NCBI GenBank assembly: GCA_026125795.1
Contig: JAHCKM010000002.1
Span: 1,612,001 to 1,676,000 of the forward strand
DNA length: 64,000 nucleotides
Direction: 5' to 3'
From: Burkholderiaceae bacterium
GTDB taxonomy: Bacteria; Pseudomonadota; Gammaproteobacteria; Burkholderiales; Burkholderiaceae_C
Shown: positions 22,433-50,508 of the stretch, one piece after another
Numbering within the stretch: position 1 is the first letter of the stretch
Layout: every line of letters starts with the position of its first letter
The notes under the pieces: model-generated
The model's input: only the letters and a program-made list of their open reading frames with translations
Told to the model about the DNA's origin: nothing
Databases searched by the model: none
Translations under genes and position numbers: made by a program

Positions 22433-22678
22433 TCATCTGCTGGTGGTGTTGTCCACCGCCTCGTCGACACCCGAACCCCGGGCGCAGTGGGCGCAGCAAT
22501 ACATCGACGATCCATCCTCGATACCGTGGCCGAGGATCAGACAACCGCAGTGTGCACAGCTGGGCGCGAGCTTGTAGGCGGCGCACTCGATGCTGTCGAA
22601 GGTGAAGCGCTGACCGGCAGCAGTGGTCACCTCGAACGCTTTGGCGTAATCGTTGCCGCAGGTGTGGCAGCGGGGCAT
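22433..22678 (-). CDS. Small zinc-ribbon-like Cys-rich protein
   Basis: An 81-residue protein with cysteines at CHTCGNDY, then CAHCGC and CCAHC, two likely zinc knuckles (Cys-x2-Cys pairs). It is otherwise polar with no signal peptide. A strong AAGGAG precedes the ATG at 22678, and a sigma-54-like site lies upstream at 22727. Similar small proteins occur in Burkholderiales, as I recall, but their role is unknown. It could bind metal or nucleic acid. Confidence 0.75.
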   Translation of the reverse strand: MPRCHTCGNDYAKAFEVTTAAGQRFTFDSIECAAYKLAPSCAHCGCLILGHGIEDGSSMYCCAHCARGSGVDEAVDNTTSR

Positions 22679-22726
22679 TTCACAACTCCTTGGTGGTAGG
22701 CGGCACACGCCGCGGTGCGTTCGAGC

Positions 22727-22741
22727 GGCACATGCGATGCC
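22727..22741 (-). promoter_or_regulatory. Sigma-54-like site before the Cys-rich protein gene
   Basis: On the minus strand GGCATCGCATGTGCC has GG-N10-GC spacing and would start transcription about 40 nt before the gene at 22678. Confidence 0.45.
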
Positions 22742-22808
22742 TGCGCGCAGGTGGATGCCGATGCACCACCGGGTGCAGTCGCATCTCCAGAGTGCGATCG
22801 GCGCGGCC

Positions 22809-25535
22809 TCACGCGCCACCGGCCAGTGCAGCCAACGCACGCACCAGCACCGGCGGCTCCACTGGCTTGGCCAGGTGCAGCTGAAAACCGGCCATCAACG
22901 CCAGCAGGCGGTCCTCGGCCTGGGCGTGGCCGGTTAGTGCGATCGCCGGCAAACGCTTGTCGAGCGCGACTGCGCGCTGCGCCTCGAGCTGGCGGATGCG
23001 ACGCATCAGCTGATGGCCGTCTTCGCCGTCGGCCAGCGTGATGTCGCACACCAGCAGGCGAGGCCACTGCTCGGGTGGGTGCTGCTCGAGCCACTGCAGC
23101 GCCTGTGCGCCGCGCTGGAACGGCATCACCCGGGCGCCCTCGGCCTGCAGCATCAGGCCGAGCGATTCCAGCGCATCGGCATGGTCGTCGATGCACATCA
23201 CCGTGAGCCCCGTCAGCATCGGAGTCTGCGGATGCTGGGGCGTGACAACATCGGCCGGCGGCGGCTCGCTGGGCACGGCCAGCGCGCGCAGCGGCAGCTC
23301 GATGATCGAGCGCATGCCGTGCGTGCCGGCCGGCAGCTCGACCTCAAAGCGCCCGCCCTGGCGCTCGATGATCGATCGCACCTCCAGCGGATCGACCGGC
23401 TCGGGATCGTCGGGCTCCGTGGTGCGCGGCTCCAGCAGGCGGCGCCTGGGCCTGGGCGGCATCGGCGCCACCGGGGCGTTGCGGCCGTCGGTGACGCTCA
23501 GGCGCGCCTGCGCGTCGTGGCGCTGCAAGCGGATCTCGATGCGGCCGCCTTCCGGTGTGAGGCGCACCGCTTGCGCGCCGATCGCGTACAACACCTGCGA
23601 CAACACGCCCGGGTCGCCTGAGACGCTGGCGTTGCCGGCGTCGATGTCGGTGTACAGCGCGATGCGGCGTGCTTCGATCGGTCCGCGCAGCGCGTCGATG
23701 GTGCCGGCCAGCAGCGCCCCCAGGTTGACCGGCTGCCGTGCCAGGCGCCGCTCCAGCCGCTCGAACTCGCGCTGCTGGCGCTGCAGGTTCCACAGCTGCG
23801 CGTACAGGCCTTGCTGCGCCAGCAGCGCGTCGTGGCGCCCGCTCTCGACGATGCGTCCCTTGTCCATGACGACGATGTGATCGGCATCGACGATGGTCGA
23901 CAGGCGGTGCGCGACGATCAATGTGGTGCGGCCCTGGGCCGCGCGCTCGAGCTCCGACTGGATCGCGCGCTCGGCGCGTGTGTCGAGCGCCGACGTCGCC
24001 TCGTCGAAGATCAGCAGCGGCGGGTTCTTCAGCAGCACGCGGGCGATCGCGATGCGCTGCTTCTCGCCGCCCGAGAGTTTGGTGCCGCGCTCGCCGACAA
24101 CGGTGTCGTACTGCCGCGGCAACGAGACGATGAACTCGTGCACCTGCGCCGCCTGGGCCGCCTGGATCACCTCGGGCAGTCCGGCGCCGGGGCGGCCGTA
24201 GGCGATGTTGTAGGCGATCGACTCGTTGAACAGCGCCGTGTCCTGCGACACCACGCCGATCGCGTCGCGCAGCGAGCGCAGCGTGACGGCGCGGATGTCC
24301 TGCCCGTCGAGCGTGATCCGTCCGCCATCGGGGTCATACAGGCGCAGCAGCAGGCGCGCCAGCGTCGACTTGCCCGAGCCGCTGCCGCCCACCACCGCCA
24401 CCGTCTGGCCGGGCGCCAGCGCGAGGCTGAAGTCGTGCAGGATCGGCCGGCCGTGTTCGTAGGCGAAGTCGACTTGCTCGAAGCGCACCTCGCCGCCGCG
24501 CAGCTGCAGCGGCCGGGCGTTCGGCGCGTCGGCGATCTCCGGCGGCTGGCGCAGCAGCTGCAGCAGCCGCTCGGTGTCCACCAGCGCATCGAGCGTCTGG
24601 CGGAACACGAAACCGAGCGCATTCAACGGCAGGCACAGCTGGATCAGGTAGGCGTTGACCAGCACCAGGTCGCCGATGCTCATGCGCTGCTCTAGCGTGT
24701 ACTGGCCCGCCAGCAGCATCACCGTGGCCACACCGCCGGCGATGATCGCGCTCTGTCCGATGTGCAGCGCCGACAGCGCATGCTGGTTCAGCACCGAGGC
24801 GCCCACCCAGTCGTGCTGCAAGGCGGCGAAACGCCGGTGCTCGAAGTCCTGGCGCGAGTGGGTCTTGATGGTCTCGACGTTGAGCAGGCTGTCCACGCGC
24901 ATGCCCTGCGCGCGCGAGTCGATCTCGTTCACGGCGCGCTGGCGCCGCTCGCGCCGCCGCGTCATCAGCGTGGTGTAGCCGGCATAGAAGAAGAACGTGA
25001 CGACGATCGCCACCGTGAACCAGCCGCTGTAGCCGGCGGCGATCATCACCACCAGGACGGCGATGAACTCCACGAGCGTCGGCAGCACGGTGAACAGCCC
25101 CGCGCCGAGCAGGAACGCGATGCCGGCGGTGCCGCGCTCGACATCGCGGATCAGCATCCCGGTGCTGCGCAGTGCATGAAAGCGCGGGCTCAGATGCATC
25201 AGGTGCAGGTACACCGTCTGCGCAAACTCGCTCACCGTGCGCAGCGTGACACGCGCGAACACCAGGTCGCGCAGCTCGGTGAACAGCGTGGCGGCAAAAC
25301 GCAGCACCGCATAGGCCAGCAGCAGGAACACCGGCAGCGTCAGCACCACGCGCGCGTCGCTGGCCGGGCCAGCACCCGGTGCGGCGGCGGCGCTGAACGT
25401 GTCGACGATCCCCTTGAGCGACAAGGGCACCAGCACCGCGGCCATCTTGGCCAGCAAGAGCAGCCCGAGCGCGGCAGCGGTGCGCCCGCGCTGTCGCCAC
25501 ACCGATTGCCACAGCGTCAGGTAGACGGAACCCAT
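22809..25535 (-). CDS. ABC exporter fused to degenerate HATPase and receiver domain
   Basis: A 908-residue fusion. Residues ~15-310 are an exporter transmembrane domain, and ~345-580 an ATP-binding domain of the Atm1/HMT type with Walker A GGSGSGKST (383-391), signature LSGGEKQ (488-494), Walker B LLIFDE (507-512) and the H-loop His (543). Residues ~600-750 resemble a histidine-kinase ATPase fold (PVNLGALLAGTIDALR, DPGVLSQVLYAIGAQAV), but the N-box Asn residues are Ala651 and Gln655, no glycine-rich G-box remains, and no phospho-His helix is present. Residues ~776-905 are a receiver with acidic Asp783/784, phospho-acceptor Asp831, Thr868 and Lys890 all conserved. The start is uncertain; no ribosome site fits 25535 well. 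Confidence 0.88.
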   Translation of the reverse strand: MGSVYLTLWQSVWRQRGRTAAALGLLLLAKMAAVLVPLSLKGIVDTFSAAAAPGAGPASDARVVLTLPVFLLLAYAVLRFAATLFTELRDLVFARVTLRTVSEFAQTVYLHLMHLSPRFHALRSTGMLIRDVERGTAGIAFLLGAGLFTVLPTLVEFIAVLVVMIAAGYSGWFTVAIVVTFFFYAGYTTLMTRRRERRQRAVNEIDSRAQGMRVDSLLNVETIKTHSRQDFEHRRFAALQHDWVGASVLNQHALSALHIGQSAIIAGGVATVMLLAGQYTLEQRMSIGDLVLVNAYLIQLCLPLNALGFVFRQTLDALVDTERLLQLLRQPPEIADAPNARPLQLRGGEVRFEQVDFAYEHGRPILHDFSLALAPGQTVAVVGGSGSGKSTLARLLLRLYDPDGGRITLDGQDIRAVTLRSLRDAIGVVSQDTALFNESIAYNIAYGRPGAGLPEVIQAAQAAQVHEFIVSLPRQYDTVVGERGTKLSGGEKQRIAIARVLLKNPPLLIFDEATSALDTRAERAIQSELERAAQGRTTLIVAHRLSTIVDADHIVVMDKGRIVESGRHDALLAQQGLYAQLWNLQRQQREFERLERRLARQPVNLGALLAGTIDALRGPIEARRIALYTDIDAGNASVSGDPGVLSQVLYAIGAQAVRLTPEGGRIEIRLQRHDAQARLSVTDGRNAPVAPMPPRPRRRLLEPRTTEPDDPEPVDPLEVRSIIERQGGRFEVELPAGTHGMRSIIELPLRALAVPSEPPPADVVTPQHPQTPMLTGLTVMCIDDHADALESLGLMLQAEGARVMPFQRGAQALQWLEQHPPEQWPRLLVCDITLADGEDGHQLMRRIRQLEAQRAVALDKRLPAIALTGHAQAEDRLLALMAGFQLHLAKPVEPPVLVRALAALAGGA

Positions 25536-25618: not shown

Positions 25619-26218
25619 TCAGGCCTCGGCGGTTTCGTCGATCACGTCGTCATCGGTGGCCACCGGCGCGTCGATCGGCAGTCCCGAGGCCAGCGCCTCG
25701 TGGTCCTCGACCCGTGCGAGCGGCGCGATGCCCAGGTCTTCGGCCATCTCGGCGCGGCGCGATTGCATGTCGGTGCGCAGGCGCTCCCAGTCGGCGTCAG
25801 CCTCGCGCAGCGCGGGAAACAGCTCCAGCTCCTCGTCCCGGGCGTGCAGTCGCACGTGCTCGCCGAGGATGCGGAAGTCCCTGGGATAGTCCACCGCGTC
25901 GGGTTGCGCGCTTTCCAGCTCGTCGACCAGGCGGCGGATGCAGGCGTGTTCGATTTCGCTTTGCTCGATCAGGTCGGTGCCGGCCAGCGCCTGGTGCACC
26001 GCGGGGTACAGCACCTGCTCCTCGACAGCGGCGATCATTTTCAGCTCGGCGAAGGTGCGCTGCACGAGACGCTGGCCGGTCTGGCCGGCCTCTTCGCCGG
26101 CCAGGCGCTCGAACTCGCGAAAGTCCTCGAGCACGCGGTGAAAGTCGTGGCGCAACAGGCCAAGGACCTGATCGCGTGTGTCGGCAGGCGCGCGGGCGCC
26201 CGCAGCGGCGTTGCACAT
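25619..26218 (-). CDS. Hemerythrin-like HHE-domain protein
   Basis: A 199-residue helical protein with the hemerythrin HHE pattern: LLRHDFHRVLEDF, IAAVEEQVLYPAVHQAL, IEHACIRRLVDEL, and EHVRLHARDEELELFPAL, which supply the His/Glu/Asp ligands for a di-iron centre. Possible roles are oxygen, NO or iron handling. AGGAG lies 8 nt before the ATG at 26218; an upstream extension to 26293 has no ribosome site. A long acidic tail ends DDDVIDETAEA. A second hemerythrin lies on the other side of fumC at 27850-28395. Confidence 0.87.
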   Translation of the reverse strand: MCNAAAGARAPADTRDQVLGLLRHDFHRVLEDFREFERLAGEEAGQTGQRLVQRTFAELKMIAAVEEQVLYPAVHQALAGTDLIEQSEIEHACIRRLVDELESAQPDAVDYPRDFRILGEHVRLHARDEELELFPALREADADWERLRTDMQSRRAEMAEDLGIAPLARVEDHEALASGLPIDAPVATDDDVIDETAEA

Positions 26219-26341
26219 GGGGAGGCTCCTGGAGGATCGTTTGTTGAGCGGCAGGCCCAACAGGATGAGCAAATGCCGTTCCAAGCGGTGCACTGCCCGT
26301 AACCGGCGCGCCCGCGCGCACGGGCGGCTGTCCGGCCGCAG

Positions 26342-27739: not shown

Positions 27740-27849
27740 CGCGTCGCGGCATCGTAGCGCCGCCGCTTCTCATCTGGCGCGGAATGGCGTTTGCCGCCGG
27801 TATCGCGCGGTGCATGTTGCACCTGCACACGCCCATGAGGAAGACCACC

Positions 27850-28395
27850 ATGCCCACTCCACGCGAAACCGCCCGCAGCGCGAGCTCCGCGCGAACCGAG
27901 CTGCTGAAGATGCTGAAAGGGGATCACAAGAAGGTAAAGAAGGCGTTCCAGGACTTCGAGCGGCTCGACAAGCAGAAACAAGGCGACGAATGCCAGGCGC
28001 TGGTGCTGCAGACCTGCGCCGATCTGAGCGTGCACACCATGCTGGAGGAAGAGATCTTCTACCCGGCGATCCGCGACGCGATGCGTGACCAGAGCCTGAT
28101 CGACGAAGCCGAGGTCGAGCACGCCACCGCCAAGACGCTGATTGCCGACTTGCAGCAATTGCCGCCGGAAGACCGCACCTATGCCGCCACCTTCAAGGTG
28201 CTGGCGGAGTACGTGCAGCACCACATCAAGGAAGAAGAGAGCGAGATTTTTCCGCAACTCACGCGCGCCAAACTCGATTGGGATGATTTGCAGCAACAGA
28301 TGACCGTGCGGCGCCAGTCGCTCGAGGACGAGCTGCTGCCGCAGGGCACGCGCGCCGGCTTGCCGGAGGGGACCGAAGTCGACGCCGAACGTTGA
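27850..28395 (+). CDS. Hemerythrin-like HHE-domain protein (second copy)
   Basis: A 181-residue helical protein: MLKGDHKKVKKAFQDF, HTMLEEEIFYPAIRDAM, EVEHATAKTLIADLQ and YVQHHIKEEESEIFPQL carry the His/Glu ligands expected for a di-iron site. No membrane segment. The start at 27850 was favoured by GAGGAA upstream; 27835 is an alternative. GGAA-N7-TGCC at 27781-27795 is a one-mismatch version of the recurring sigma-54-like site with a TTTGC -12 element. It is divergent from fumC. Confidence 0.86.
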   Translation: MPTPRETARSASSARTELLKMLKGDHKKVKKAFQDFERLDKQKQGDECQALVLQTCADLSVHTMLEEEIFYPAIRDAMRDQSLIDEAEVEHATAKTLIADLQQLPPEDRTYAATFKVLAEYVQHHIKEEESEIFPQLTRAKLDWDDLQQQMTVRRQSLEDELLPQGTRAGLPEGTEVDAER

Positions 28396-31405: not shown

Positions 31406-31674
31406 TGATTGCGCCCATGCGACAGCAGCAAGCGGGTTCCCCGCTGCGCGCCCGCGGGCCGCGGCGAATCATTCCGTCGGTAGCGTCATGGCCGACGATC
31501 CGATGCGATCGCCGAAGAAGGCGCGAGCGCTGCTAGCGCTGCGACCCCCATGCTCGGCTTCACAGGGCGCATCACGTGCCTCGGTTGAGCGCCGCCCCGC
31601 CGCCCGGCGCCTCGGTGCCTTGCGCAGCCGTGGGCTGGCCGCGGGCGATCGGGGTCGCGCACAAGGAGCCAGCG

Positions 31675-34600
31675 GTGGCCGGCGCTGAGACCGGCGCGTC
31701 GGCCGCCCAGGCGCCGCTGCGCCGGCGCTGGTCGGCGCCGTGGCCCAGGGCCTCGCTGCGCGCCTATCTGGCCGCCATCATGCTGGTGGCCACCGTGCCC
31801 TTCATCGCGTTGATGGGCTACCGCATCTATGGCGACTTCATGGCCCAGCGTGCGCGCATGTGGGCCGAGTTGCAGCGCACCGCGGTCGCGACGGCGCAGA
31901 ACGTCGAGCGCGAGCTGGCGGCATCGATCGAGACGTTGACGATCATCGGCCGCACCACGCTGGTCGACCGGGCCGACAGTGCCGAGTTCGAGGCGTTCCT
32001 GCGCGACCACCCGCAGCCGCGCAACAGCTGGTACGGCACGTTCCTGCTCTTGCCCGACGGCCAGGTGCTGGTCGACGCGGCGTACCCGCCCGGCGCTCGC
32101 CGCGCGATCGGCGCCGAAGCGTTGCGCAGCCTGCCGGAGTTCCGCAGCATGCTGACGCAGCCGCGCGCGCTGGTGTCCAACCTGATCCCGCCGCGCGGCG
32201 CCGACGGCAGCTTCACCACCGCGGTCGCGGTGCCGGTGGTGTCGCAAGGCCGCGTGGCCTACGTGCTGGGCGCGTGGATCGACTCCGGCGCCTGGCAGAT
32301 GCTGCTGCAGAGCTCGGCGCCGCCGGCCGACGGCTTCCTGGTCCTGTACGACCGCGACCACGTGGTGATGGCGCGCACGCAGTCGCCCCAGCGTTTCGTC
32401 GGCGTGCAACTGCCGCCCGACGCGATTGGCGCCATGCGGGCGCGCAGCGCCGGCACCCACCGCATCGCCGCGCTGGAAGGCGACACGGTGTACGGCGCCT
32501 GGCATGCGGTGCCGTGGGCCGGTTGGGGCGTCGCGGTGGGCATCGCCGCAGCGCCTCTCGATGCGGCCGTGCTGCAAAGCGTGATCACCGCGGCCGCCGG
32601 CGCCGCCTTGTGCGTGCTGCTCGGCCTGTACCTGGCCTCGCGCGTGGCGCGCCACCTGGTGCGACCGCTTGATCAGCTGTCCAGGGGTGAGGTCCAGCAC
32701 ATCGGCGCGCCGATCGTGGTGCTCGAGGTGGCCGATCTGCGCCAGGCGCTGGCCAGTGCGGCCGAGCGCGACATCGCGGCGCGCCAGCGCATCCAGGACA
32801 CGGCCAACGAATTCCAGACCCTGTTCAACTCGAGCCCGATCGCGCTGGCGTTCGCGCAGGACCCGGGCTGCCGGGTCGTCACCGACAACGCGGCGATGGA
32901 GGCGTTGTTCGGCAAGGTCGATGCGCGCGCCGACCTGGTCATCCGCGGGCCGCACAGCGGGCCGCCGCTGCAACCGCATCAGCTGCCGTTGCAGCGCGCC
33001 TGCGCATCGGGCCAGCCGGTGCCGCCGATGGAGCTGGAGATCGTGCGTCCCGGCCAGCCGGCGCGGCACGTGCTGGCGCAGGCCGTGCCGTTGCTCGATG
33101 AGACCGGCCAGCCGCGCGGGGCGATCGGCGCCATCGTGGACATCAGCGACCGCGTGCGCTCCAGCGCGCAGCTCGAGCGCGCCGACCGCCGCTTGCGCGA
33201 GAGCCAGCACCTGATCGACCTGGCGCAGGAGGCGGGCCACGTCGGCTTCTTCCACTACCGCTTCGGGGAAGACACGCTGCACTGGTCGCCCGGGCAGGCC
33301 AAGCTGTTCGGCCTCGGGACCATGCCCGACGACACGCACTGGAGCGGCTTGTTGCGCCACGTCCACGCCGACGACCGCGTGCGGGTCGAGCAGACGCTGC
33401 GCGAGCTGTTGGCCAGCGGGCGCGAACGCGAGACGCTGGAGTACCGCATCGCGCCGGCCGGCGGGCCGCTGCGCTGGCTGTCGAGCCGCGTGCTGGTGGT
33501 GTACGGCCCCGATGCCAAGCCGCAGCAGATGATCGGCGTCAGCGTCGACGCAACCGAAGAAAAGCAACTGCAGCGCGAGCGCGCCGCGTTGACCGAACTG
33601 GAACGCGCGGCGCGCCTGCAGGCCGAGGCCGCCAACCAGGCGAAGGACGAGTTCCTCGCGATGCTCGGCCATGAGCTGCGCAACCCGTTGAGTGCGATCG
33701 CTTCGGCGGTGGAGGTGCTGAATCGCGTCGACTCCGGCAGCGAGGTGGCGGCCAGCGCACGGGCGATCGCGGCCCGCCAGACGCGCCACCTGGCGCACAT
33801 GATGGACGACCTGCTCGACGTCGGCCGCGTGATCTCGGGCAAGGTGCTGCTGACGCGGCGCGCGCTCGATCTGTCCAAGCTCGTGCGGCGCGTGATGTCG
33901 ACGCTGGAGGTCACTGGCGACGGACAACGCCACGTGCTGGAGTCCAATCTCACCCCGGTGTGGGTCGATGCCGACGCCACGCGCGTCGAACAGGTGTTCG
34001 GCAACCTGCTGACCAACGCGTTGAAGTACACGCCGGCCGGCGGCCACATCAAAGTGGCGGTGCACCACGACGGCGACAGCGCGGTGCTGCAGGTCAGTGA
34101 CAACGGCCCCGGCATTCCGCCCACCCTGCTGCCGCGCGTGTTCGACCTGTTCGTGCAGGGCGAACGTTCGCTCGACCGGCGCGCCGGCGGGCTGGGCATC
34201 GGCCTGACGTTGGCGCGCCGGCTGGTGGAGTTGCACGGCGGCACGATCGAGGCCGACAGCTCGCCGCGCGGCAGCACGTTCACCGTGCGCCTGCCGTCGA
34301 TCGAACCGCCCGCGGTGATCGACACGCAGCAGCGCCGTCAGGAGCTGAGCCGGCGCAGCGTGGTGCTGGTGGAAGACAACGAAGACGCGCGCGAGAGCCT
34401 GCGCGTGATGCTCGAGCTCGACGGCCACACCGTGGTCACCGCGCAGGACGGCGTGAGCGGCCTGCGCACGGTGCTCGACCTGCGGCCCGACGTCGCGGTG
34501 GTCGACGTGGGCCTGCCCGGCATGAACGGGCTGGAACTGGCCAAACGCAGCCGGGGCGCCGGCTTTGCCGGCTTGATGATCGCGGTGTCGGGTTACGGGC

Positions 34601-34704
34601 GCGACACTGACGTGCGGCAGGCCCGCGAGTCGGGCTTCGACGCGCACCTGGTCAAGCCGGTGAATGTCACCGAACTGCAACGTCTGATGGGCTCTGTGGC
34701 ATGA
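31675..34704 (+). CDS. Hybrid sensor histidine kinase with receiver
   Basis: A 1009-residue membrane kinase. A membrane helix near 23-45 is followed by a periplasmic Cache-type sensor to ~300, a second helix (~305-325), two PAS domains (~380-500 and ~515-630), the DHp motif GHELRNPLSAI with His666, an HATPase (N-box NLLTNALKYTP, G-box GGLGIGLTLARR), and a C-terminal receiver with Asp944 and Lys994. The GTG at 31675 has AAGGAG 6 nt upstream. A possible longer form begins at 31576. The NtrC-type regulator follows 121 nt later and is the likely partner. Confidence 0.88.
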   Translation: MAGAETGASAAQAPLRRRWSAPWPRASLRAYLAAIMLVATVPFIALMGYRIYGDFMAQRARMWAELQRTAVATAQNVERELAASIETLTIIGRTTLVDRADSAEFEAFLRDHPQPRNSWYGTFLLLPDGQVLVDAAYPPGARRAIGAEALRSLPEFRSMLTQPRALVSNLIPPRGADGSFTTAVAVPVVSQGRVAYVLGAWIDSGAWQMLLQSSAPPADGFLVLYDRDHVVMARTQSPQRFVGVQLPPDAIGAMRARSAGTHRIAALEGDTVYGAWHAVPWAGWGVAVGIAAAPLDAAVLQSVITAAAGAALCVLLGLYLASRVARHLVRPLDQLSRGEVQHIGAPIVVLEVADLRQALASAAERDIAARQRIQDTANEFQTLFNSSPIALAFAQDPGCRVVTDNAAMEALFGKVDARADLVIRGPHSGPPLQPHQLPLQRACASGQPVPPMELEIVRPGQPARHVLAQAVPLLDETGQPRGAIGAIVDISDRVRSSAQLERADRRLRESQHLIDLAQEAGHVGFFHYRFGEDTLHWSPGQAKLFGLGTMPDDTHWSGLLRHVHADDRVRVEQTLRELLASGRERETLEYRIAPAGGPLRWLSSRVLVVYGPDAKPQQMIGVSVDATEEKQLQRERAALTELERAARLQAEAANQAKDEFLAMLGHELRNPLSAIASAVEVLNRVDSGSEVAASARAIAARQTRHLAHMMDDLLDVGRVISGKVLLTRRALDLSKLVRRVMSTLEVTGDGQRHVLESNLTPVWVDADATRVEQVFGNLLTNALKYTPAGGHIKVAVHHDGDSAVLQVSDNGPGIPPTLLPRVFDLFVQGERSLDRRAGGLGIGLTLARRLVELHGGTIEADSSPRGSTFTVRLPSIEPPAVIDTQQRRQELSRRSVVLVEDNEDARESLRVMLELDGHTVVTAQDGVSGLRTVLDLRPDVAVVDVGLPGMNGLELAKRSRGAGFAGLMIAVSGYGRDTDVRQARESGFDAHLVKPVNVTELQRLMGSVA

Positions 34705-34825: not shown

Positions 34826-36271
34826 ATGACCCACGCTCTCATTGTCGAAGACGACGTCGATTCGGCGCAGATGATGGCCGCGCTGGTGGCCAGCGACAAC
34901 TTCACCGTGGCCACCGCGCACAGCCTGGGCGACGCGCGGCGGCAGCTCGCGCTGCAGCCGCCCGACATCGTGCTGCTCGATCTGCAGTTGCCGGACGGCA
35001 GCGGCATGAGCCTGTTCGATGACCCCGAGCTGCTGTCGCAGTCCGAGGTGGTGTTGATCACCGGCCATGCAAGCCTCGACACGTCGATTCAGGCGCTGCG
35101 CCTCGGCGCGGCGGACTACCTGGTCAAGCCGGTCAGCCCGAAGCAGCTGCACGGCATCCTGTCGCGCGTGATGCGTCCATCGGCCCTGAAGGCCGAGCTG
35201 GCATCGATGACCGCGAAATGGAAGGACACCGGCACCTTCGGCCACCTGTGGGGTCGTTCGCCGCCGATGCAGAAGGTGTACGAGCAGATCTCGCGCGTGG
35301 CCGGTACCGCGGTCACGGTGTTCTGCACCGGCGAAAGCGGCACCGGCAAGGAGCTGGTGGCCAAGACCGTGCACGATCTGAGCCGTCGTCGCAAGCGGCC
35401 GTTCCTCGCCATCAACTGCGGCGCGATCTCGCCCAACCTGATCGAGAGCGAGCTGTTCGGCCACGAGAAGGGCAGCTTCACGGGTGCCGACCGGCAGCAC
35501 CAGGGCTTCTTCGAGCGTGCTCACGGCGGCACGCTGTTCCTCGACGAGGTCACCGAGATGCCGCCGGAGCTGCAGGTGAAGCTGCTGCGCGTGCTCGAGA
35601 CCGGCACTTTCTCGCGCGTGGGCTCCACGCAGAGCCTGGAAGCCGATGTGCGCGTGATCGCGGCCAGCAACCGTCCGCCCGAGACCGCGGTGGCCGCGGG
35701 CAAGCTGCGCGAGGACCTGCTGTACCGGCTCAACGTGTTCCCGATCGTGCTGCCGCCGCTGCGCGAGCGCGTCGACGACATCGGCCTGCTGGCCGAGCAC
35801 TTTCTCGCCGAGGTGTCGCAGACCGAAGGGGTGACCAAACGGTTCACGCGCGATGCAGTGGCCAAGCTCGAACGCTACCGCTGGCCCGGCAACGTGCGTG
35901 AGCTGCGCAACGCGGTGCAGCGCGCGTACGTGATGACGACGGGCGACACGATCACCGACGAGTGGCTGCCGACCAACGGCCCTGCGGCCGCCGCCCCGGC
36001 GGCGAGCCCGAGCGTCAGCGCACCCAGCGCCGAGGCACAGCCGCAACCTGCGCCGGCGCCGGCACACAACCCCAACACGATCACCGTGCAGGTGGGTACA
36101 TCGATCGCCGAGGCCGAGCGTCAGTTGATCCTGGCCACCTTCGCGCATTGCGGGCACAACAAGGAACGCACCGCCGCCGCGCTGGGCATCAGCTTGAAGA
36201 CGCTGTACAACCGCCTCAAGGAGTTTGCCAACGACGCGCGCGAAGGCGAGCCGAACACGCGCACACGTTGA
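34826..36271 (+). CDS. NtrC-family sigma-54-dependent response regulator
   Basis: A 481-residue activator. Receiver ~1-120 with Asp52 ([12 protein letters not shown]) and Lys in YLVKPVSP. The AAA+ domain has Walker A GESGTGKE (169-176), GSFTGA loop (216-221), Walker [12 protein letters not shown] and [10 protein letters not shown] flexible Pro/Ala linker (~390-420) leads to a Fis-type HTH ([20 protein letters not shown]). The loop that contacts sigma-54 is usually GAFTGA; GSFTGA is a permissible variant. The gene lies behind the hybrid kinase and in a window that also carries rpoN and many sigma-54-like sites, so it may be their activator. Confidence 0.93.
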
Positions 36272-38209: not shown

Positions 38210-39355
38210 ATGCGCATCGCCTACGTCACCGAAACCTACCCGCCCGAGATCAACGGCGTCTCGCTGACCGTGCAGCGCTGCGTGCGTCACATGCGGCGCA
38301 ACGGCCACCAGGTGCTGCTGGTGCGTCCGGCGCAGGCCGGCGAAGCCAGCGGCCCGGGTGCGCACGAATGGCGCACGCACGGCATGCGCATCCCGATGTA
38401 CCCCGATCTGCGCATGGGCCTGGCAAGCGCGGCGCACCTTCGCCGCCGTCTGCGCGCCTGCGATGCCGAGTTGGTCCATGTGGCGACGCAGGGCCCGCTC
38501 GGGCGCGCAGCGGTGGCTGCGGCGCGCACGCTCGGTGTGCCGGTGACGAGCGACTTCCGCACCAACTTCCACGTGTATTGCAGGCACTACGGCGTGGGCT
38601 TCGCCGGCGGATTGGTGATGCAATACCTGCGGCGCTTTCACAACCGCACCGCGGCCACCTTCGTGCCGTGCTGCGCGTTGCGAGCCGAGCTGATGGAGCG
38701 GGGCTTTCAGCGCGTCGAGGTGCTGAGCCGCGGCGTCGATGCGCACCTGTTTTCGCCCGCGCGGCGCAGCGCCGAGCTGCGACGGCACTGGAACGCGCCC
38801 GACGACGCGCCGGTGCTGATCTATGTCGGGCGCCTGGCATCGGAGAAGAACGTGCCGCTGGCGCTGCGCGCTTTCGAGGCCGTGCACGCGCAACGCCCCG
38901 ATACGCGCATGGTGGTGGTGGGTGACGGTCCGCTGCGGCCCAGCCTGCAGGCGAGCCACCCTCACGTGCACTTTGTCGGCCTTCAGCGCGGCAGCGAGCT
39001 GGCCGCGCACTATGCGAGCGCCGACGTGTTCCTGTTCCCGAGCCTGAGCGAGACCTTCGGCAACGTGACGCTGGAGGCTCTGGCCAGCGGGCTGACTGTG
39101 GTGGCCTTCGATGCGGCCGCGGCCGGCGCGTTGATCCGCAACGGCCGCAACGGCCTGCTGGTGCCCGCGGGCGATGGCGATGCTTTCGTGCGCGCCGCCT
39201 GTGCCGCAGCCTCCGGCGACATGGCGGCGCTGCGCGAGCGTGGGCGCCAGACCGCGCTGGCCAGCGACTGGGAGCCGGTGCTGCACCGCTTCGAGCAGCG
39301 GCTGGTGGCGCTGGCCCACCCGGTCGAGAGCTTCGGCCATGCAAGTGTGGCTTGA
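38210..39355 (+). CDS. GT4-family glycosyltransferase
   Basis: A 381-residue cytosolic GT-B enzyme: RIAYVTETYPPEINGVSLTV at the acceptor domain, YVGRLASEKNVPLALRAFEA and VVVGDGPLRPSLQ, and the nucleotide-sugar motif FPSLSETFGNVTLEALASG with Glu residues. It resembles lipid glycosyltransferases such as mannosyltransferase MgtA. The next gene overlaps its end by 17 nt and encodes a PAP2 lipid phosphatase. Together with the AI-2E gene they form an operon that may act on a glycolipid. Confidence 0.9.
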   Translation: MRIAYVTETYPPEINGVSLTVQRCVRHMRRNGHQVLLVRPAQAGEASGPGAHEWRTHGMRIPMYPDLRMGLASAAHLRRRLRACDAELVHVATQGPLGRAAVAAARTLGVPVTSDFRTNFHVYCRHYGVGFAGGLVMQYLRRFHNRTAATFVPCCALRAELMERGFQRVEVLSRGVDAHLFSPARRSAELRRHWNAPDDAPVLIYVGRLASEKNVPLALRAFEAVHAQRPDTRMVVVGDGPLRPSLQASHPHVHFVGLQRGSELAAHYASADVFLFPSLSETFGNVTLEALASGLTVVAFDAAAAGALIRNGRNGLLVPAGDGDAFVRAACAAASGDMAALRERGRQTALASDWEPVLHRFEQRLVALAHPVESFGHASVA

Positions 39356-40181: not shown

Positions 40182-40991
40182 TCAACTCACGATAGAAGCA
40201 CTCTCGTGCAATCGCTCGGCGATCGAGCCCAGTGTGAGCGGTTCACGTCCCTCGTCGACTGCGTCGGCCACCAGCCGCAAGGCCTGCTCGCGCACGGCGC
40301 GGTATTCAAAGTCGCTCGGGTGCAGTTCAAAGCGCATCCAGCCGCGGCGGCGCTCTTCGTAGGCCACCAGGGCGTTCCACGGTCGCGACACGGCGCGCCG
40401 CCAGGCGGCGCGGGTGCTGTAGACGATGCTGCGTGCGTGCAGCACGCGCACCGGTCGGTCGGCCATTCCATGCGGCAGCGCAAACAGCGACGTGCGCGTG
40501 CAGGTGTAGTCGAACGGCTGGCGCAGCAAAGCGTGCCAGGTGCCTTCGCTCAGCAGCCAGGCCGGCGCGACGAAGCCGCTCAGTGGCCAGTCGCGGCGCG
40601 CGAACCAGCGCCGCCCGGCCTTGAGGCGTCGCGTGGCCTCTGTGCTGTCGAGCGAGGCGAACTCGCCTTCGTCGTCGGTGTACCACTGGCGGCGCACGCG
40701 CTCGAGCCAGCGGCGCGGGGCAGGGCCCTCGTCGCGGTGCGTCAAGCCGTGCAGCACCAGCTCGTCGCCGCGCTGCAGGCGCGATTGCAGCCACTGCTGG
40801 AAGGCGGCGTCGGCAGTGCGGCCGTGGTAGTACGGCACCACCAGCAAGGTGAAGTCCAGCGGCGCGATGCGCTCCAGCGCGGCGATCAGCGCCGCGCAGC
40901 GCGCCTGCGTGGCGGGCGCCACGTCGTGCAGCGTGACGCTCATCGCGTAGCCGTTGTCCTGCACCGCCGGCACGCTGTCGAGCGGGTTCAT
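40182..40991 (-). CDS. DUF2334 polysaccharide-deacetylase-like protein
   Basis: A ~269-residue protein of the divergent polysaccharide deacetylase fold: SVTLHDVAPATQ with the metal-binding Asp, DELVLHGLTHRD with the His pair, GFVAPAWLLSEGTWHALL and RFELHPSDFEY near the end. DUF2334 proteins are predicted to deacetylate sugars. It follows the glycosyltransferase gene by 31 nt on the same strand. The start is uncertain; ATGs at 41060, 40991 and 40943 are all in frame and none has a good ribosome site. Confidence 0.85.
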   Translation of the reverse strand: MNPLDSVPAVQDNGYAMSVTLHDVAPATQARCAALIAALERIAPLDFTLLVVPYYHGRTADAAFQQWLQSRLQRGDELVLHGLTHRDEGPAPRRWLERVRRQWYTDDEGEFASLDSTEATRRLKAGRRWFARRDWPLSGFVAPAWLLSEGTWHALLRQPFDYTCTRTSLFALPHGMADRPVRVLHARSIVYSTRAAWRRAVSRPWNALVAYEERRRGWMRFELHPSDFEYRAVREQALRLVADAVDEGREPLTLGSIAERLHESASIVS

Positions 40992-41022
40992 CGTGCACCC
41001 GGGGTGCGCCGCGCGGCGGAGC

Positions 41023-42180
41023 TCATCGGAACTGCCCGCGCCGCTCGATGGCGTGCGCATAGCGCCGCTGCAACGCGGCCATCACCAGCGACCAGTCATG
41101 GCCGCGCGCGCGCGCCAGCGCGGCGCGCACGCTGGCGCGGTTGGACATGAACAGCTCGGCGATCGCCTCGGCCCAGTCGTGCGGCCGGTCGGAGTCGACG
41201 GCGAAGCCGCAGCCACCGGCCACGGCCTCGCTCAGCCCGCCGGCGTCGCGCACCAGCACCGGCGTGCCGCAGGCCATGGCCTCGAGCACGGCGAGCCCGC
41301 CGGTTTCCTGGTCGCCCGCGTGCACGAATGCATCGACACTGGCCATGGCACGCGCCACCTGTGCGGCCTGCGGCTGAAAACCCAGCACGTGCACTTGCTT
41401 GCCCGCCGGCGGCCGCGGACCGGCGCCGAGCGCCAGCAGGTGGTAGCGCGGGCCGAGTCGCTGCACCGCCTCCACCAGTTGCTGCAGGTTCTTTTCCGGC
41501 GCGAAGCGGCCGGCGTACAGCAGCAGCCGCGCGTCGGCCGGCAGGCCCAGAGAGGCACGCCAGCGTTCGTCGCGTGCGGCCGGATGGAACACCCGCGTGT
41601 CCACGCCGAGCGGCTGCACCTGCGCGTGCAGCACGCCGAGCGCCTGCAGGCGTTGCTGCATGGCGCGGCTCGGCGCCAGCACGAGATCGAAGCGGTCGCA
41701 CAGCCGGCTCAGGTAGCGGTCGACCCGGGCCTCGGCACGGCGTGCCCAGGCCTGCGATCGCTGCGCGCCGAGCAGCCGGCCGCGCGCGATCGTGTGCCCG
41801 GCGAGGGTGGAGATGTCGCTGTGGCAGAACAGCACCGCCGGCACGCCGCACCAGCGCGCGGCGTCGATGGCCGCCCAGGCCAGGCGGTACGGATCGCCCG
41901 CTTCGATCACGTCGGGTCGTTGCGCCGCGATCAGTCGCGCCGCGGCGGCACGCCGCAGCGGCAGGCGGTAGCCGCCGCTGAACGGCAGCGGCACGCCGCC
42001 GCAATCGACCATGCCGTCGCCCTGCGCGCCGGGCGCCACCAGCGTGTGGCGCCAGTGCCCGTCGTGCGCGAGCTGCGCGCGCTTGGCGAGCAGGTAGCGG
42101 CGCACCCCACCGCCGCGTGGGCTCCAGAACATCGTGGTGTCCACCAAATGCAGCGGCGTCTCGGTTGCGTGGTTCGGCAC
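41023..42180 (-). CDS. GT4-family glycosyltransferase
   Basis: A 385-residue GT-B glycosyltransferase: WSPRGGGVRRYLLAKRAQL at the acceptor site, VLAPSRAMQQRL, LLYAGRFAPEKNLQQLVEAV, and HAGDQETGGLAVLEAMACG with the donor-binding Glu residues. The GTG at 42180 follows GAGGTG by 6 nt. It is upstream of the deacetylase gene, an arrangement seen for glycolipid modules. A TGGCAC-N4-TTGCA sequence upstream on its strand has sigma-54-like halves but spacing one base short. Confidence 0.9.
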   Translation of the reverse strand: MPNHATETPLHLVDTTMFWSPRGGGVRRYLLAKRAQLAHDGHWRHTLVAPGAQGDGMVDCGGVPLPFSGGYRLPLRRAAAARLIAAQRPDVIEAGDPYRLAWAAIDAARWCGVPAVLFCHSDISTLAGHTIARGRLLGAQRSQAWARRAEARVDRYLSRLCDRFDLVLAPSRAMQQRLQALGVLHAQVQPLGVDTRVFHPAARDERWRASLGLPADARLLLYAGRFAPEKNLQQLVEAVQRLGPRYHLLALGAGPRPPAGKQVHVLGFQPQAAQVARAMASVDAFVHAGDQETGGLAVLEAMACGTPVLVRDAGGLSEAVAGGCGFAVDSDRPHDWAEAIAELFMSNRASVRAALARARGHDWSLVMAALQRRYAHAIERRGQFR

Positions 42181-42236
42181 GGGATCACCTCGAGCAAGGC
42201 CCGTGCCGCGCGTGTGCACTGCAACGTGGTGCCACG

Positions 42237-42251
42237 GGCACGCCATCTGCC
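42237..42251 (+). promoter_or_regulatory. Sigma-54-like site before the DUF2383 gene
   Basis: GGCACGCCATCTGCC fits -24/-12 spacing, and the start would leave a leader of about 26 nt with AAGGAT ribosome site at 42275. It nearly matches the site at 55474. Confidence 0.6.
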
Positions 42252-46006: not shown

Positions 46007-46960
46007 TCACGATGTGACCTGGCGCAGCGCACTGTCCCAGTCGCTGACAAAACGGTCGATCGAGAAGCGCTCGGCGGCCATGCGCCGGCCGGCTTCGCCG
46101 ACGCGCCGGGCCTCGGCCGGATCGTGCAGAAGCCGTTGCATCACGTCGATCAGGCGATCGAGTCGCGTGTCGGCAAAGCCGGTGTCGCCGTCGCGGACCA
46201 CGCTGGACAGTTCGGTGGTCGACAGCGCCACCACGGGTGCGCCGACCAGCATCGCCTCGATCACCGACAGGCCCAGGCTGGTGTGGCGGATCGGATTGAA
46301 GAAGAAGCGGTGCGCGGCCATGCGCTCGGGCAGCTGGTCATTGGCCACCGGACCCTCGCCACCGCACAGCTCGCTGCCCAGGCCCACCAGCGTCAGCGGC
46401 ACGCGCTGCGCCGCGGCGCGGTACACGTCGGCGCCCAGGCGGCGACCGCGCCGGTCGATGTGGTTCACCGCCACCAGGCCGCGCGCCAGATCGCCGTGAT
46501 GGCGCACCTCGCGCAGCAGGCGCACGCCGTGCTCGATCACGCGCACCGGCACATGGCCGTTGTCCCACATCAGCGCGTTGAACGGCGTCACGTGGACCAG
46601 CAGCACCTCGGGGTCGTCCATCCAGTGGCGCGTGTCGGTGGGATGTTGCTGCGGCGGGTCGTGCTCCAGATAGATGCGCGGGCCGCGCTGCTGCGCCGTG
46701 CTCAAGTATCGGTACTGCTCGTCCTCCCAGGCCGCGCGTGACTGAAACAGCACCACGTCGAAGTCGGCGTGGCGCACCTGGTCGATCGGCACCTCGTGCA
46801 CGTTGGCATGCCACGGCAGCGTTCCGCTGCGTCCGGTGTGGTGCGGCGTGCGATGCGCATCGGTCACCAGCCACAGCTCGTGCGGGATATGGCTCAGGTA
46901 GTGCAGGTAGTTGCCGTGCACATGCCAGGTGAGCACGCGCAGGCTGCGCGACGGCTTCAT
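46007..46960 (-). CDS. Glycosyltransferase (GT4-like)
   Basis: A 317-residue GT-B-like enzyme, shorter than usual. It contains LTWHVHGNYLHYLSHIPHELWLV near the N-terminus, LTLVGLGSELCGG, and FFFNPIRHTSLGLSVIEAMLVGAPVVAL, the donor-binding region in which a Ser-Leu-Gly replaces the usual Glu. It follows the GT2 gene by 4 nt within the carbamoyltransferase operon and is its last gene. Sugar specificity cannot be predicted. Confidence 0.85.
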   Translation of the reverse strand: MKPSRSLRVLTWHVHGNYLHYLSHIPHELWLVTDAHRTPHHTGRSGTLPWHANVHEVPIDQVRHADFDVVLFQSRAAWEDEQYRYLSTAQQRGPRIYLEHDPPQQHPTDTRHWMDDPEVLLVHVTPFNALMWDNGHVPVRVIEHGVRLLREVRHHGDLARGLVAVNHIDRRGRRLGADVYRAAAQRVPLTLVGLGSELCGGEGPVANDQLPERMAAHRFFFNPIRHTSLGLSVIEAMLVGAPVVALSTTELSSVVRDGDTGFADTRLDRLIDVMQRLLHDPAEARRVGEAGRRMAAERFSIDRFVSDWDSALRQVTS

Positions 46961-46964
46961 GGCG

Positions 46965-47966
46965 TCACAGGAACAACACGCGGAAGTGCAAGGCGCCGCG
47001 CGTGCGCCAGTACACCGACAAGAACGGGATCAGCGCCGAGGTGGCCAGCATCTCCGTCACGTGCGCCGGCGTGCGCCGGGTCGGGCGCAGGCGCAGCCAG
47101 GCCAGGCGCAGCACCAGCGTCGCGGCGGCAACCGCGGCGAGCATCGCTGCCGTGCCTTGTCCCCCGATGGCCAGCACGATCGCCGCCAGCGTCGCCGCGA
47201 CGATCAGGTAGTAGTCCCAGGGCGGCACGCGGCGGATGCGCTCGCGGTACAGGCGCGGGTGCTTCTTGTACAGCAGCGCGTCGAAGAAGGTGTTGCGCTG
47301 CTGGCGCAGGCACACGCCCCAGCGTTCGTGCCGCACCGGATGCAGCACGCGGGCCTCGTCGCAGCGGCCCACCGGACCGGCGTGTTGCATCAGCCGGAAC
47401 TGCAGGTCGGCGTCCTCGCGCCAGGCGCGCAGAAAACGTTCATCGAAGCCGCCGATGTGCGCCAGCGCCGCGCGCCGCACGAAGGCATTGGCGGTCACGA
47501 ATTCGGCGTGCTGCAGGCCTTGGGTCATGCGCTCGTGGTCGCTCGGCCGCTGTCCCGGGCCGCCTTCCAGCGGCACGATCACGCCGCCGGCGAGCGCCGA
47601 CCACTCGGGATGCCTGCGCAGCGCGGCCTCGCCGTGCGCCAGCCATTGCGGATGGGCGATGGTGTCGTCGTCGGTGAACGCGACCAGCGGCGCACGCGCG
47701 GCGCGCCAGCCGAGGTTGCGCGCGCCCGCCGGGCCGCGTCCATGCGGCCGCAGATAGCGCAGCACCGGCGCGTCGGGCGATGCCAGCTCGCGCACCAGCT
47801 CGCGCACCGCGTCCTGCCGGCCGTCGTCGACGACGATGATCTCGTAGGCGCGCGGCCCGATGCTCTGCCGCAGCAGCGCGCGCAGGCAGCGGCGCAACAG
47901 CTCGGGCCGCTGGTAGGTCGGCACCACCACACTCACGCTGGGAAGGGTCGCGTCGCCGGGTGTCAT
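46965..47966 (-). CDS. GT2-family glycosyltransferase
   Basis: A 333-residue GT-A enzyme: PSVSVVVPTYQRPELLRRCL, EIIVVDDGRQD, AFTDDDTIAHPQW with the DxD-type acidic group, GGFDERFLRAWREDADLQFRL with the catalytic acid, then two C-terminal hydrophobic helices (about 255-295) that anchor it to the inner membrane. Its start overlaps the carbamoyltransferase stop by 4 nt (ATGA). It belongs to the SDR, carbamoyltransferase, GT2, GT operon. Confidence 0.9.
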   Translation of the reverse strand: MTPGDATLPSVSVVVPTYQRPELLRRCLRALLRQSIGPRAYEIIVVDDGRQDAVRELVRELASPDAPVLRYLRPHGRGPAGARNLGWRAARAPLVAFTDDDTIAHPQWLAHGEAALRRHPEWSALAGGVIVPLEGGPGQRPSDHERMTQGLQHAEFVTANAFVRRAALAHIGGFDERFLRAWREDADLQFRLMQHAGPVGRCDEARVLHPVRHERWGVCLRQQRNTFFDALLYKKHPRLYRERIRRVPPWDYYLIVAATLAAIVLAIGGQGTAAMLAAVAAATLVLRLAWLRLRPTRRTPAHVTEMLATSALIPFLSVYWRTRGALHFRVLFL

Positions 47967-49708
47967 TTTTCGAGGATGAAGGAGCCGATCGCCAGCGCGT
48001 CGAGCGGCGTGCCGTAGAAGGCCTCGATCGCCTGGCGCGGCGTGCAGACGATCGGCTCGCCGCGCACGTTGAACGAGGTGTTGACCAGCACCGGCACGCC
48101 GGTGCGGCGGCCGAACTCGCGCAGCAGCGCGTGAAAGCGTGGGTGGGTGTCGTGCTCGACGGTCTGCACGCGCGCCGTGCGGTCGATGTGGCAGGCCGCC
48201 GGGATGCGGTCGCGCTGGATCGGCAGCACGTCGTAGACGAACAGCATGAACGGCGACGCGCCGCCGTTGGCATCGGGCGGCGCGAACCAGCGCCCCAGGT
48301 CTTCCTGCGGCACGGCCGGCGCCACCGGACGAAAGTCTTCGCGGTCCTTCAGCTCGTTCAGGCGCGTCTGCATCGAGGCTTCGAGCGGCGAGGCGAGGAT
48401 CGAACGCGCGCCCAGCGCGCGTGGCCCGAACTCCATGCGACCCTGGAACCAGCCAACGATGCGGTTGGCCTCGAGCAGCTGCGCCACGTCGGCCGCCAGG
48501 TTATCGCTGCGGCGGTACCGCAACTGCGCCCAGCGCAGGTGCTGCTCGATGGTGTCGTCGTCGAAGTGCGGGCCCCAGCAGGCGTGTTGCATCGACCAGC
48601 TCCGCGGCGCCAGCGCCGGTGCACTGCCGCGTTCGGTGGCGTCGATCCACAGCGCGGCGCCGAGCGCGGTGCCGGCGTCGCCGGCGGCCGGCTGCACCCA
48701 CACCGCGTCGAAGACGCCGGCGTCGCGCAGTCGTGCGTTCATCACGCAGTTGAGCGCCACGCCGCCGGCCATCGCCAGCCGGGACTCGCCGCTGGCCTGG
48801 CGCAGCCAGCGTGCCAGCTGCAGCACCGTGTCCTCCAGCACGTCCTGCAGCGACGCGGCAAGGTCGAGGTGGTGCTGCTCCATCGGCGCGCCGGGCTCGC
48901 GCGCAGGACCGCACATGCTCGTGAGATCCAGCGGCAGCACGCGGTACTGCCCGTGCGCACCGAGCTCCACGTGCTCGGACAGCAGGCGGCGGAACTGCGG
49001 CGTGCCGAGCGCCGCCAGCGCCATCACCTTGTACTCGTCGCTCGAATGCAGGAAGCCCAGGTGCTGCGTGATGCGCTCGTACAGCATGCCCAGCGAGTGC
49101 GGCATCTGCACCGCACCGAGCGACTCGTAGCGATCGCCGCGGAAGGCGCCGTAGGTGGTGGTGGCGTGTTCGCCGCGGCCGTCGAGCGTCATCACGGCGC
49201 AGCGTTCGAACGGTGCGGCCAGGAACGCGCTGGCCTGGTGGCACTGGTGGTGATCGACAAAATGCCAGCGATAGGGCGGCTGCGTCACCTTGACGCCCGC
49301 AAAGCGCTTGCGCAGTCGGTGCGGCACGCCGTCAACCAACTGGCGCGGCGCGTTGATGGTGTAGGCCAGGAACAGCGGGTCCCACGGGCTCTCCCACGGC
49401 GCTGCCGCTTCGGCCGACGGCTCGAGCGGCAGCGCGATCGTGGTCTGGTTGCCCAAGCGCTCGCCGGCAAACACGTCGGGCCTGAAGCTGTAGGCCACGT
49501 GGTCGACGTCGCGCAGGTCGATGCCGGCCTCGGCCAGGCAATAGTCGATCGCCGCATGCGGCAGCTCCCAGGCCGTGAAAGGCACCGGGCGCTTCGCGTG
49601 CTTGATGCGCGAGAAACGTTCCTCTTCGGCGGCGGCGACGAGGCGGCCGTCCACCACCAGGGCAGCGGCGGAGTCGTGAAAGGCGGCGTTGATGCCCAGC
49701 GTGATCAT
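47963..49708 (-). CDS. Carbamoyltransferase (NodU/CmcH family)
   Basis: A 581-residue enzyme that O-carbamoylates a sugar or natural product via carbamoyl-adenylate. N-terminal Kae1-like motifs are GINAAFHDSAAALVVDG and AAEEERFSRIKHAKRPVP, with HHQCHQASAFLAAPF supplying metal ligands and MAGGVALNCVMNARL. The C-terminal domain starts FQGRMEFGPRALGARSILASP and ends in VNTSFNVRGEPIV. It is co-transcribed with a glycosyltransferase, so a glycan is the likely target. Confidence 0.94.
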   Translation of the reverse strand: MITLGINAAFHDSAAALVVDGRLVAAAEEERFSRIKHAKRPVPFTAWELPHAAIDYCLAEAGIDLRDVDHVAYSFRPDVFAGERLGNQTTIALPLEPSAEAAAPWESPWDPLFLAYTINAPRQLVDGVPHRLRKRFAGVKVTQPPYRWHFVDHHQCHQASAFLAAPFERCAVMTLDGRGEHATTTYGAFRGDRYESLGAVQMPHSLGMLYERITQHLGFLHSSDEYKVMALAALGTPQFRRLLSEHVELGAHGQYRVLPLDLTSMCGPAREPGAPMEQHHLDLAASLQDVLEDTVLQLARWLRQASGESRLAMAGGVALNCVMNARLRDAGVFDAVWVQPAAGDAGTALGAALWIDATERGSAPALAPRSWSMQHACWGPHFDDDTIEQHLRWAQLRYRRSDNLAADVAQLLEANRIVGWFQGRMEFGPRALGARSILASPLEASMQTRLNELKDREDFRPVAPAVPQEDLGRWFAPPDANGGASPFMLFVYDVLPIQRDRIPAACHIDRTARVQTVEHDTHPRFHALLREFGRRTGVPVLVNTSFNVRGEPIVCTPRQAIEAFYGTPLDALAIGSFILEK

Positions 49709-49740
49709 CGGTGCGGCTTCTCGATTCGCGGGTTGGGAAC

Positions 49741-50508
49741 TCACGGCCAGGACGACTCGCGCATCGGCAGCACCATGACCTCGGGGATCACCGTGGCCTC
49801 GGGTTGGCTCAGCACGAAGCGCACCGTGCGGGCGACGTCGATCGGGTCCTGCAGCACCTGCGGATCGATGTCGGGAAAACGCTCCAGCAGGAACGGCGTG
49901 CGCATGCCCCCGGCCACCACCGCGGTCACCTTGATGCCCGAGGCCCGCAGTTCGGCATGCAGCGCATGCGACAACCCGAGCAGCCCCCACTTGGTGGCGT
50001 GGTAGGCCGACGCGTTGGGCCAGGCCCGCTTGGAGGCGGTGGAGGCGATGTTGACGATATGCCCGCCGCGCGGCAGCAAGGTCAGCGCGTGCTTGACCAT
50101 CAGGAACGGGCCAGTGAGGTTGGTGCGCACGATGCGCTCCCAGTCGGCCGCGTCGAGCTCGGTCACCGGCGCGGTCCGATCGATGCCGGCGTTGTTCACC
50201 AGCGCGTCGAGCCGGCCGAAGCGCTCGCGCACCGCCGCCATCAGTTGCCGCACCTGCTGCTCATCGCCCACGTCCAGCGGCAGCGCGATCGCGTCGATGT
50301 CGAGCTGGGCGAGCGCGGCCGCGTGGTCGCGCGCACGATCGAGCTCGACGTCGGCCAACACGATCTGCGCGCCGGCCATGCCGAGCACGCGGCCGGTGGC
50401 GGCGCCGAGGCCGCGTGAGCCGCCGGTGACAACGATGACCTTGCCGCTGAGGCCGGTGCCGGTGCCTGCATCCGTGCGTGCATCGGTCGTGGCGTTGGAT
50501 TCGCGCAT
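49741..50508 (-). CDS. Short-chain dehydrogenase/reductase
   Basis: A 255-residue classical SDR: VVTGGSRGLGAATGRVLG, LVNNAGIDRTAP, NIASTASKRAW with Ser, and AYHATKWGLL with Tyr-x3-Lys. The sequence after it departs from bdhA. A short hydrophilic leader (MRESNATTDARTDAGTGTG) precedes the fold. GGAGG is a clear ribosome site before 50508. It opens an operon with carbamoyltransferase, GT2 and GT genes, so it may modify the sugar. Substrate is unknown. Confidence 0.9.
   Translation of the reverse strand: MRESNATTDARTDAGTGTGLSGKVIVVTGGSRGLGAATGRVLGMAGAQIVLADVELDRARDHAAALAQLDIDAIALPLDVGDEQQVRQLMAAVRERFGRLDALVNNAGIDRTAPVTELDAADWERIVRTNLTGPFLMVKHALTLLPRGGHIVNIASTASKRAWPNASAYHATKWGLLGLSHALHAELRASGIKVTAVVAGGMRTPFLLERFPDIDPQVLQDPIDVARTVRFVLSQPEATVIPEVMVLPMRESSWP

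Follow-up and report, generated by a model that had tools for sequence, protein, structure and literature searches.

One gene on the minus strand (22809–25535) joins an Atm1-like ABC half-exporter to a degenerate kinase CA domain and a receiver. It lies in the window, the whole 64,000-nucleotide stretch of Burkholderiaceae DNA analysed here, and encodes 908 amino acids from an ATG at 25535 to a stop at 22809–22811. An in-frame TTG at 25589 is a possible alternative upstream start, and the plus-strand frame of the same interval is broken by stops. Pfam recognises ABC_membrane at residues 22–301 (E 1.6e-27), ABC_tran at 366–515 (E 2.2e-35) and Response_reg at 779–901 (E 2.2e-16), with HATPase_c at 640–748 falling under the Pfam cut-off (E only 0.0039). 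The half-exporter is complete. Its transmembrane domain (24531–25535, minus; residues 1–335, a boundary of our choosing), identified from the ABC_membrane match and from helices in the model, precedes a nucleotide-binding domain (23775–24488, minus; residues 350–587) that carries every ABC ATPase motif we searched for: Walker A starts at residue 383, the signature at 487, Walker B at 507, the D-loop at 515 and the H-loop at 542. Third-position GC runs from 0.86 to 0.95 across nine 100-codon blocks of the gene and stays gene-like over the junction, so there is no sign of a frameshift.

The C-terminal third preserves a kinase fold without kinase chemistry, followed by a receiver with its phosphorylation site intact. 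Alignment and a model of the C-terminus define a degenerate HATPase (CA) domain (23286–23738, minus; residues 600–750) that has lost the N-box Asn residues and the glycine lid. In a model of the 332 C-terminal residues (pLDDT 89.7) a kinase CA fold is followed by a receiver, and Foldseek ranks the hybrid kinase ShkA first; since the VIA structure table holds mostly receivers, the CA-fold match depends on its ThkA rows and on the Foldseek list. Both the hybrid-kinase alignment and the full-length model, given without inter-domain error estimates, trace a helix (23739–23807, minus; residues 577–599) that extends the C-terminus of the nucleotide-binding domain into the kinase-like domain, and by our comparison it occupies the place of DHp helix 2 in kinases. 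The protein has no HisKA match in Pfam, and the H-box motif appears in 0 of 38 fused frames among the best 80 GTDB loci. It therefore has the CA (Bergerat) fold of histidine kinases but neither the DHp phospho-His nor the ATP-binding boxes (N, G1, G2). The receiver (22812–23210, minus; residues 776–908), defined by Pfam, motifs and model, retains D783, D784, D831, T868 and K890.

These results agree with a first-pass annotation of the DNA, which had described one unbroken frame with a complete Atm1-type half-transporter, an ATPase-like fold stripped of its ATP-binding Asn residues and glycine lid, a missing DHp helix and a receiver with every phosphorylation residue. The modelling it proposed as a check gives a C-terminus resembling CA and receiver folds, and these fold matches rule out an ABC accessory domain unrelated to either.

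The fusion is a widespread family rather than an accident of one genome. A search of 399 family genomes with the C-terminal 315 residues found the same order, in one open frame behind an ABC signature, at 24 of the 30 best loci, one of them the window's own, and hybrid-kinase frames at the remaining 6; the 24 are a lower bound, as only the best 30 loci were taken. A scan of GTDB species genomes, built on a 21-row alignment, found the in-frame order at 38 of the best 80 loci, so that 38 is a lower bound for the number of fusions. Another 40 of those loci encode hybrid kinases, whose H-box precedes the matched region by about 60 residues, and in the remaining 2, one of which ends at a contig edge, no H-box was seen. 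Eight rows are common to the two sets, and the window is not among the 38. The GTDB fusions include 14 named genera (Rhizobacter, Methylibium, Rubrivivax, Roseateles, Pelomonas, Hydrogenophaga, Aquabacterium, Pigmentiphaga, Bordetella, Achromobacter, Cupriavidus, Ralstonia, Azoarcus and Solimonas) as well as Rhodocyclales MAGs. Their hosts are soil and water bacteria, and the family is wide enough for comparative work. Among plasmid records, 7 of 25 matches span at least 80% of the protein (Cupriavidus, Burkholderia, Paraburkholderia, Caballeronia); 5 of these 7 copies are annotated, solely as ABC-domain proteins.

Recurrence of the order in other genomes, which the first-pass annotation had proposed to look for with the C-terminus alone, bears directly on whether the gene is real. 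An assembly join or frameshift is ruled out by the gene-like GC and by the one-frame order in dozens of genomes. The wider suspicion of an artefact or a one-off functionless fusion has a negligible chance of being right: the receiver site is kept in most members, and we found nothing in its favour.

Across the family, the ATPase fold has decayed while the receiver site has mostly been kept, a pattern we count in favour of a phosphorylatable switch. In an alignment of 60 fused rows, 8 of them duplicates, the first N-box Asn is present in 0 and the second in 1; both are present in all 40 hybrid kinases of the same alignment. The G2 glycines survive in 2 and 1 of the 60 rows, and the G1 Asp in 38. 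Two Paraburkholderia plasmid members outside the 60-row count keep the second N-box Asn. The full receiver site (acid pair, Asp, Thr/Ser, Lys) is present in 20 of the 24 family-genome members, which were found without a pattern on receiver residues, and in 49 of 52 non-redundant fused members (the 60 rows minus duplicates). Receiver conservation at the GTDB loci is partly built in, because that scan used one peptide pattern inside the receiver that includes its Lys. The four family-genome members with an incomplete site (L035, L036, L045, L047) all belong to one genus, g53, in which the acid pair is lost, Glu replaces the phosphorylated Asp and the exporter motifs are retained. Glu at this position often mimics phosphate, so g53 perhaps represents a natural 'locked' form of the switch; it shows that the exporter is able to persist without a phosphorylatable Asp.

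The same residues bear on whether phosphorylation matters at all. The kinase-like fold and receiver could instead serve for docking, tethering the exporter to a kinase or to glycosyltransferases whether or not the receiver is phosphorylated. Such a role would suit a domain kept as a fold although its ATPase motifs are dead, as well as the loss of the acid pair and Asp in g53. A pure dock, however, would have no need of the D, D, D, T/S, K set that most members of both samples preserve, and we consider docking alone quite unlikely.

Phylogenies of the two halves are consistent with a single origin. In a tree that sets 42 fused rows beside 17 rows of canonical Atm1 and 5 of other ABCB proteins, the ABC halves of the fusions group together inside Atm1 (support 89/100, not starred) on a long stem; the group sits among the canonical Atm1 rows and apart from the other ABCB rows. 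The fused C-termini likewise form one group against hybrid kinases, with support of 100/100 (42 fused and 40 kinase rows). As far as these trees go, one fusion followed by ATPase decay would be the simplest account that fits, and they also fit a hybrid histidine kinase as the probable donor of the C-terminus.

The exporter half is an Atm1-family branch with a re-cut glutathione pocket. The excerpted text of PMC9000953 gives eight conserved pocket residues in AtAtm3: T317, R324, R328, N387, Q390, L433, G437 and R441. In the fused members six of the eight positions are unchanged, the N387 position is His in 42 of 42, and the R328 position is Gln in 41 and Glu in 1. Fused members thus depart at N387 and R328 from the conserved glutathione pocket of Atm1/ABCB7 exporters, and so lack one feature of the family's glutathione-exporting members. 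All 42 replace Phe at position 435 by a small residue (T, A or S), and 25 of the 42 carry Cys at position 430 in TM6, compared with no TM6 Cys in 410 plant Atm3 relatives according to the same excerpt (PMC9000953). Canonical Atm1 rows from the same taxonomic order keep all eight in 15 of 15; these rows were selected with a motif in which the R324 column is fixed, and one of 16 loci (L020) was left out for failing it. In the window protein the corresponding residues, numbered from motif starts, are H258 (canonical Asn), Q199 (Arg) and C301 (Tyr).

Fused exporters tend to sit with a recurrent set of glycan genes. ORF clustering of 38 loci plus the window recovered a 175-residue protein, several glycosyltransferase families, an SDR, a HAD phosphatase, family 9 glycosyltransferases, a carbamoyltransferase and a UDP-glucuronate decarboxylase-type enzyme. 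Names of neighbours are cluster labels, one representative of most named clusters having been checked by Pfam, and the decarboxylase label combines our own reading with plasmid annotation. The set is largely operon-like in Bordetella, Achromobacter, Pigmentiphaga, Ralstonia, Cupriavidus and Rhodocyclales. The protein of about 175 residues (L066:11053–11577 and relatives) accompanies the fusion at 20 of the 38 loci, and the one representative searched matched nothing in Pfam or NCBIfam. In two annotated Paraburkholderia plasmids the fusion gene sits inside the glycan set, where a PIG-L deacetylase gene and waaF accompany it; the two plasmids' gene tables, which are incomplete, list no other transporter among those glycan genes.

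Unfused relatives lack this setting. Of the 38 fused loci, 31 have two or more of eight glycan markers no further than about 8.5 kb away. None of the 20 unfused Atm1-like loci does, and a lone SDR at one of them is the only marker seen there; the comparison is one-sided, as the markers were picked for their recurrence near fusions. Some of the 7 fused loci with fewer than two markers lie on short contigs. The unfused loci are the next-best Atm1-like matches, without a pocket check of each and with 3 stretches shortened by contig ends, and neither fused nor unfused loci are phylogenetically independent. Together, the glycan-gene context and the altered pocket, neither of which figured in the first-pass annotation, make it likely that the substrate has shifted away from typical Atm1 cargo.

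Pocket and neighbourhood also weigh on a more conservative explanation, that the protein exports metal or glutathione conjugates as canonical Atm1 does and has gained a control domain, for stress resistance. Its placement within Atm1 and the six retained pocket positions would agree with such cargo, as would hemerythrin-type genes close to the fusion in the window (25622–26293, minus; 27784–28392, plus) and near both Paraburkholderia plasmid copies (L156, L157), with manganese catalase and ferritin-like genes as well beside one of the two. The two positions altered throughout the fused members, the TM6 Cys and the near-complete lack of glycan markers at unfused loci argue the other way. Pocket changes and gene context thus weaken canonical Atm1 metal export as a full explanation, and we judge it very unlikely. 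The hemerythrin, catalase and ferritin-like neighbours possibly form a stress island. Directly downstream of the fusion lies a small Cys-rich ORF (22436–22840, minus), which we take to resemble a bacterial metallothionein; it has no match in Pfam or NCBIfam, and an argument for a metal role from this ORF was dropped for that reason.

In the window the association with glycan genes is looser than at other loci, as these genes lie about 13–31 kb from the fusion. A carbamoyltransferase (47966–49990, minus; Pfam Carbam_trans_N and _C), 22 kb away and not in one operon with the fusion, adjoins a family 2 glycosyltransferase (46968–47966, minus; Pfam) and a glycosyltransferase like the 'LTWHVHG' cluster (46010–46960, minus; ORF clustering). 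A family 9, heptosyltransferase-type glycosyltransferase (56996–58294, minus) also belongs to the associated set, and two family 4/1 glycosyltransferases (38210–39352, plus; 41026–42246, minus) possibly do. A DUF2334 protein (40185–41060, minus) lies amid the glycosyltransferase genes.

The window also encodes a candidate source of phosphate. A hybrid histidine kinase (31576–34701, plus) with PAS, PAS, HisKA, HATPase and receiver domains adjoins an NtrC-type sigma-54 response regulator (34826–36268, plus), and this kinase is a plausible local donor for the fusion's receiver. A sigma-54 factor gene (53071–54675, minus) lies in the same region as the pair. Genes with sigma-54, hybrid-kinase or NtrC cluster labels occur near a few other fusions, and the gene map of 38 loci plus the window has no kinase gene that constantly adjoins the fusion.

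Signal could also run in the reverse direction, from transport to gene control. The exporter would then be the sensor: its transport cycle, acting through the fused scaffold, would control access to the receiver, which would either absorb or pass on the phosphate of a neighbouring kinase pathway and so report glycan flux. Flux sensing by an ABC transporter is known from BceAB-BceS, the kinase and NtrC-type regulator lie 6–11 kb from the fusion in the window, genes with NtrC-type cluster labels occur near three other fusions (L051, L054, L062), and the receiver site is mostly retained. We nonetheless regard reverse flow as unlikely, because no one kinase accompanies the fusion throughout and because g53, with its dead receiver and intact exporter motifs, suits an output better than a relay.

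Our preferred reading is a branch of Atm1-type exporters that carry the carbamoylated glycan or glycolipid of the gene cluster and are gated through receiver phosphorylation by a kinase in trans; taken as a whole, we hold it to be evenly poised between right and wrong. In a single event, an Atm1-like half-exporter ancestor would have acquired the tail of a hybrid histidine kinase, and the DHp helices would have been lost; the kinase ATPase fold would then have degenerated into a scaffold, with the receiver remaining phosphate-competent. The fused exporter presumably works as a homodimer, in which the terminal helix of each nucleotide-binding domain, running into the scaffold, could pass the receiver's state to the two ATP sites. 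Because the fusion protein has no recognisable phospho-His, we infer that phosphorylation occurs in trans: D831 would be phosphorylated by a separate kinase through a phosphorelay (Hpt or DHp in trans) or by a small phosphodonor. The first-pass annotation had likewise suggested gating by a phosphorelay or by acetyl phosphate, with a docking role for the receiver as its alternative. Phosphate would alter the arrangement of CA domain and receiver and, through the continuous helix, closure of the nucleotide-binding domains, changing ATPase activity and transport in a direction that we can only surmise. As cargo we consider most likely the carbamoylated product, a glycan or glycolipid, of the associated glycosyltransferase and carbamoyltransferase genes.

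Read more generally, the family may define a class of ABC exporters in which transport is switched post-translationally by phosphorylation of a built-in receiver Asp and a dead kinase domain acts as mechanical coupler. Glycan export would then be under the direct control of a two-component pathway, bypassing transcription. We advance this claim tentatively, at slightly less than even confidence. If it is true, a single polypeptide brings an ABC exporter under the direct action of two-component signalling, which is a kind of transport control not otherwise known to us, and a cell may switch export of a sugar product on or off by phosphorylating the pump itself. The dead kinase ATPase fold between exporter and receiver would then be a natural catalytic domain turned coupler, and the recurrent gene set supplies a testable cargo.

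Each half of the protein is already known, and it is their combination that stands apart. Among the open-licence PMC papers listed by our full-text searches we found no description of the fusion or of the glycan cluster, which, for that literature, bears out the first-pass annotation's remark that no family with this order had been described; the order, the dead coupler and a receiver on an exporter are all without a description there. A zinc-linked ABC transporter of Cupriavidus belongs, according to the excerpted text of PMC7912956, to a glycerol-type importer operon and is not this fusion.

Compared with its parents, the fusion looks half familiar. A PDB search returned Atm1-type proteins as the best half-transporter matches, behind full-length ABCB1-type chains. 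With the Atm1/ABCB7 half-exporters (NaAtm1, AtAtm3, ABCB7) it shares the order of transmembrane and nucleotide-binding domains, the motifs and the TM6 PLNxLG stretch; unlike them, it has the Asn-to-His and Arg-to-Gln pocket changes, the CA and receiver domains, and the glycan gene context. With hybrid histidine kinases it shares a QPVNL-type entry, the CA fold, the linker and the C-terminal receiver, in the same order; it differs in lacking the DHp His and the ATP-binding motifs and in carrying an ABC exporter in front.

Functional precedents exist for both parts of the proposal. ABCB half-exporters tied to glycans include NdvA/ChvA (cyclic glucan), PglK (lipid-linked oligosaccharide) and MsbA (lipid A), whose roles resemble the one we infer here; to our knowledge none of them has a receiver. 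NCBIfam scores of the fusion against these families fall far under the cut-offs (ChvA 273 of 585, PglK 169 of 1000, MsbA 407 of 602). For the gating, the closest mechanistic precedent we have seen is EpsW of Myxococcus xanthus, a single-domain receiver that, when phosphorylated, activates the polysaccharide enzyme EpsZ by direct contact, as reported in the excerpted text of PMC12802240. As in our proposal for the fusion, that receiver acts directly on a membrane protein of a polysaccharide pathway and not on transcription; by the same excerpt (PMC12802240), EpsW differs from the fusion in standing alone as a protein and in acting on a phosphoglycosyl transferase instead of a fused exporter.
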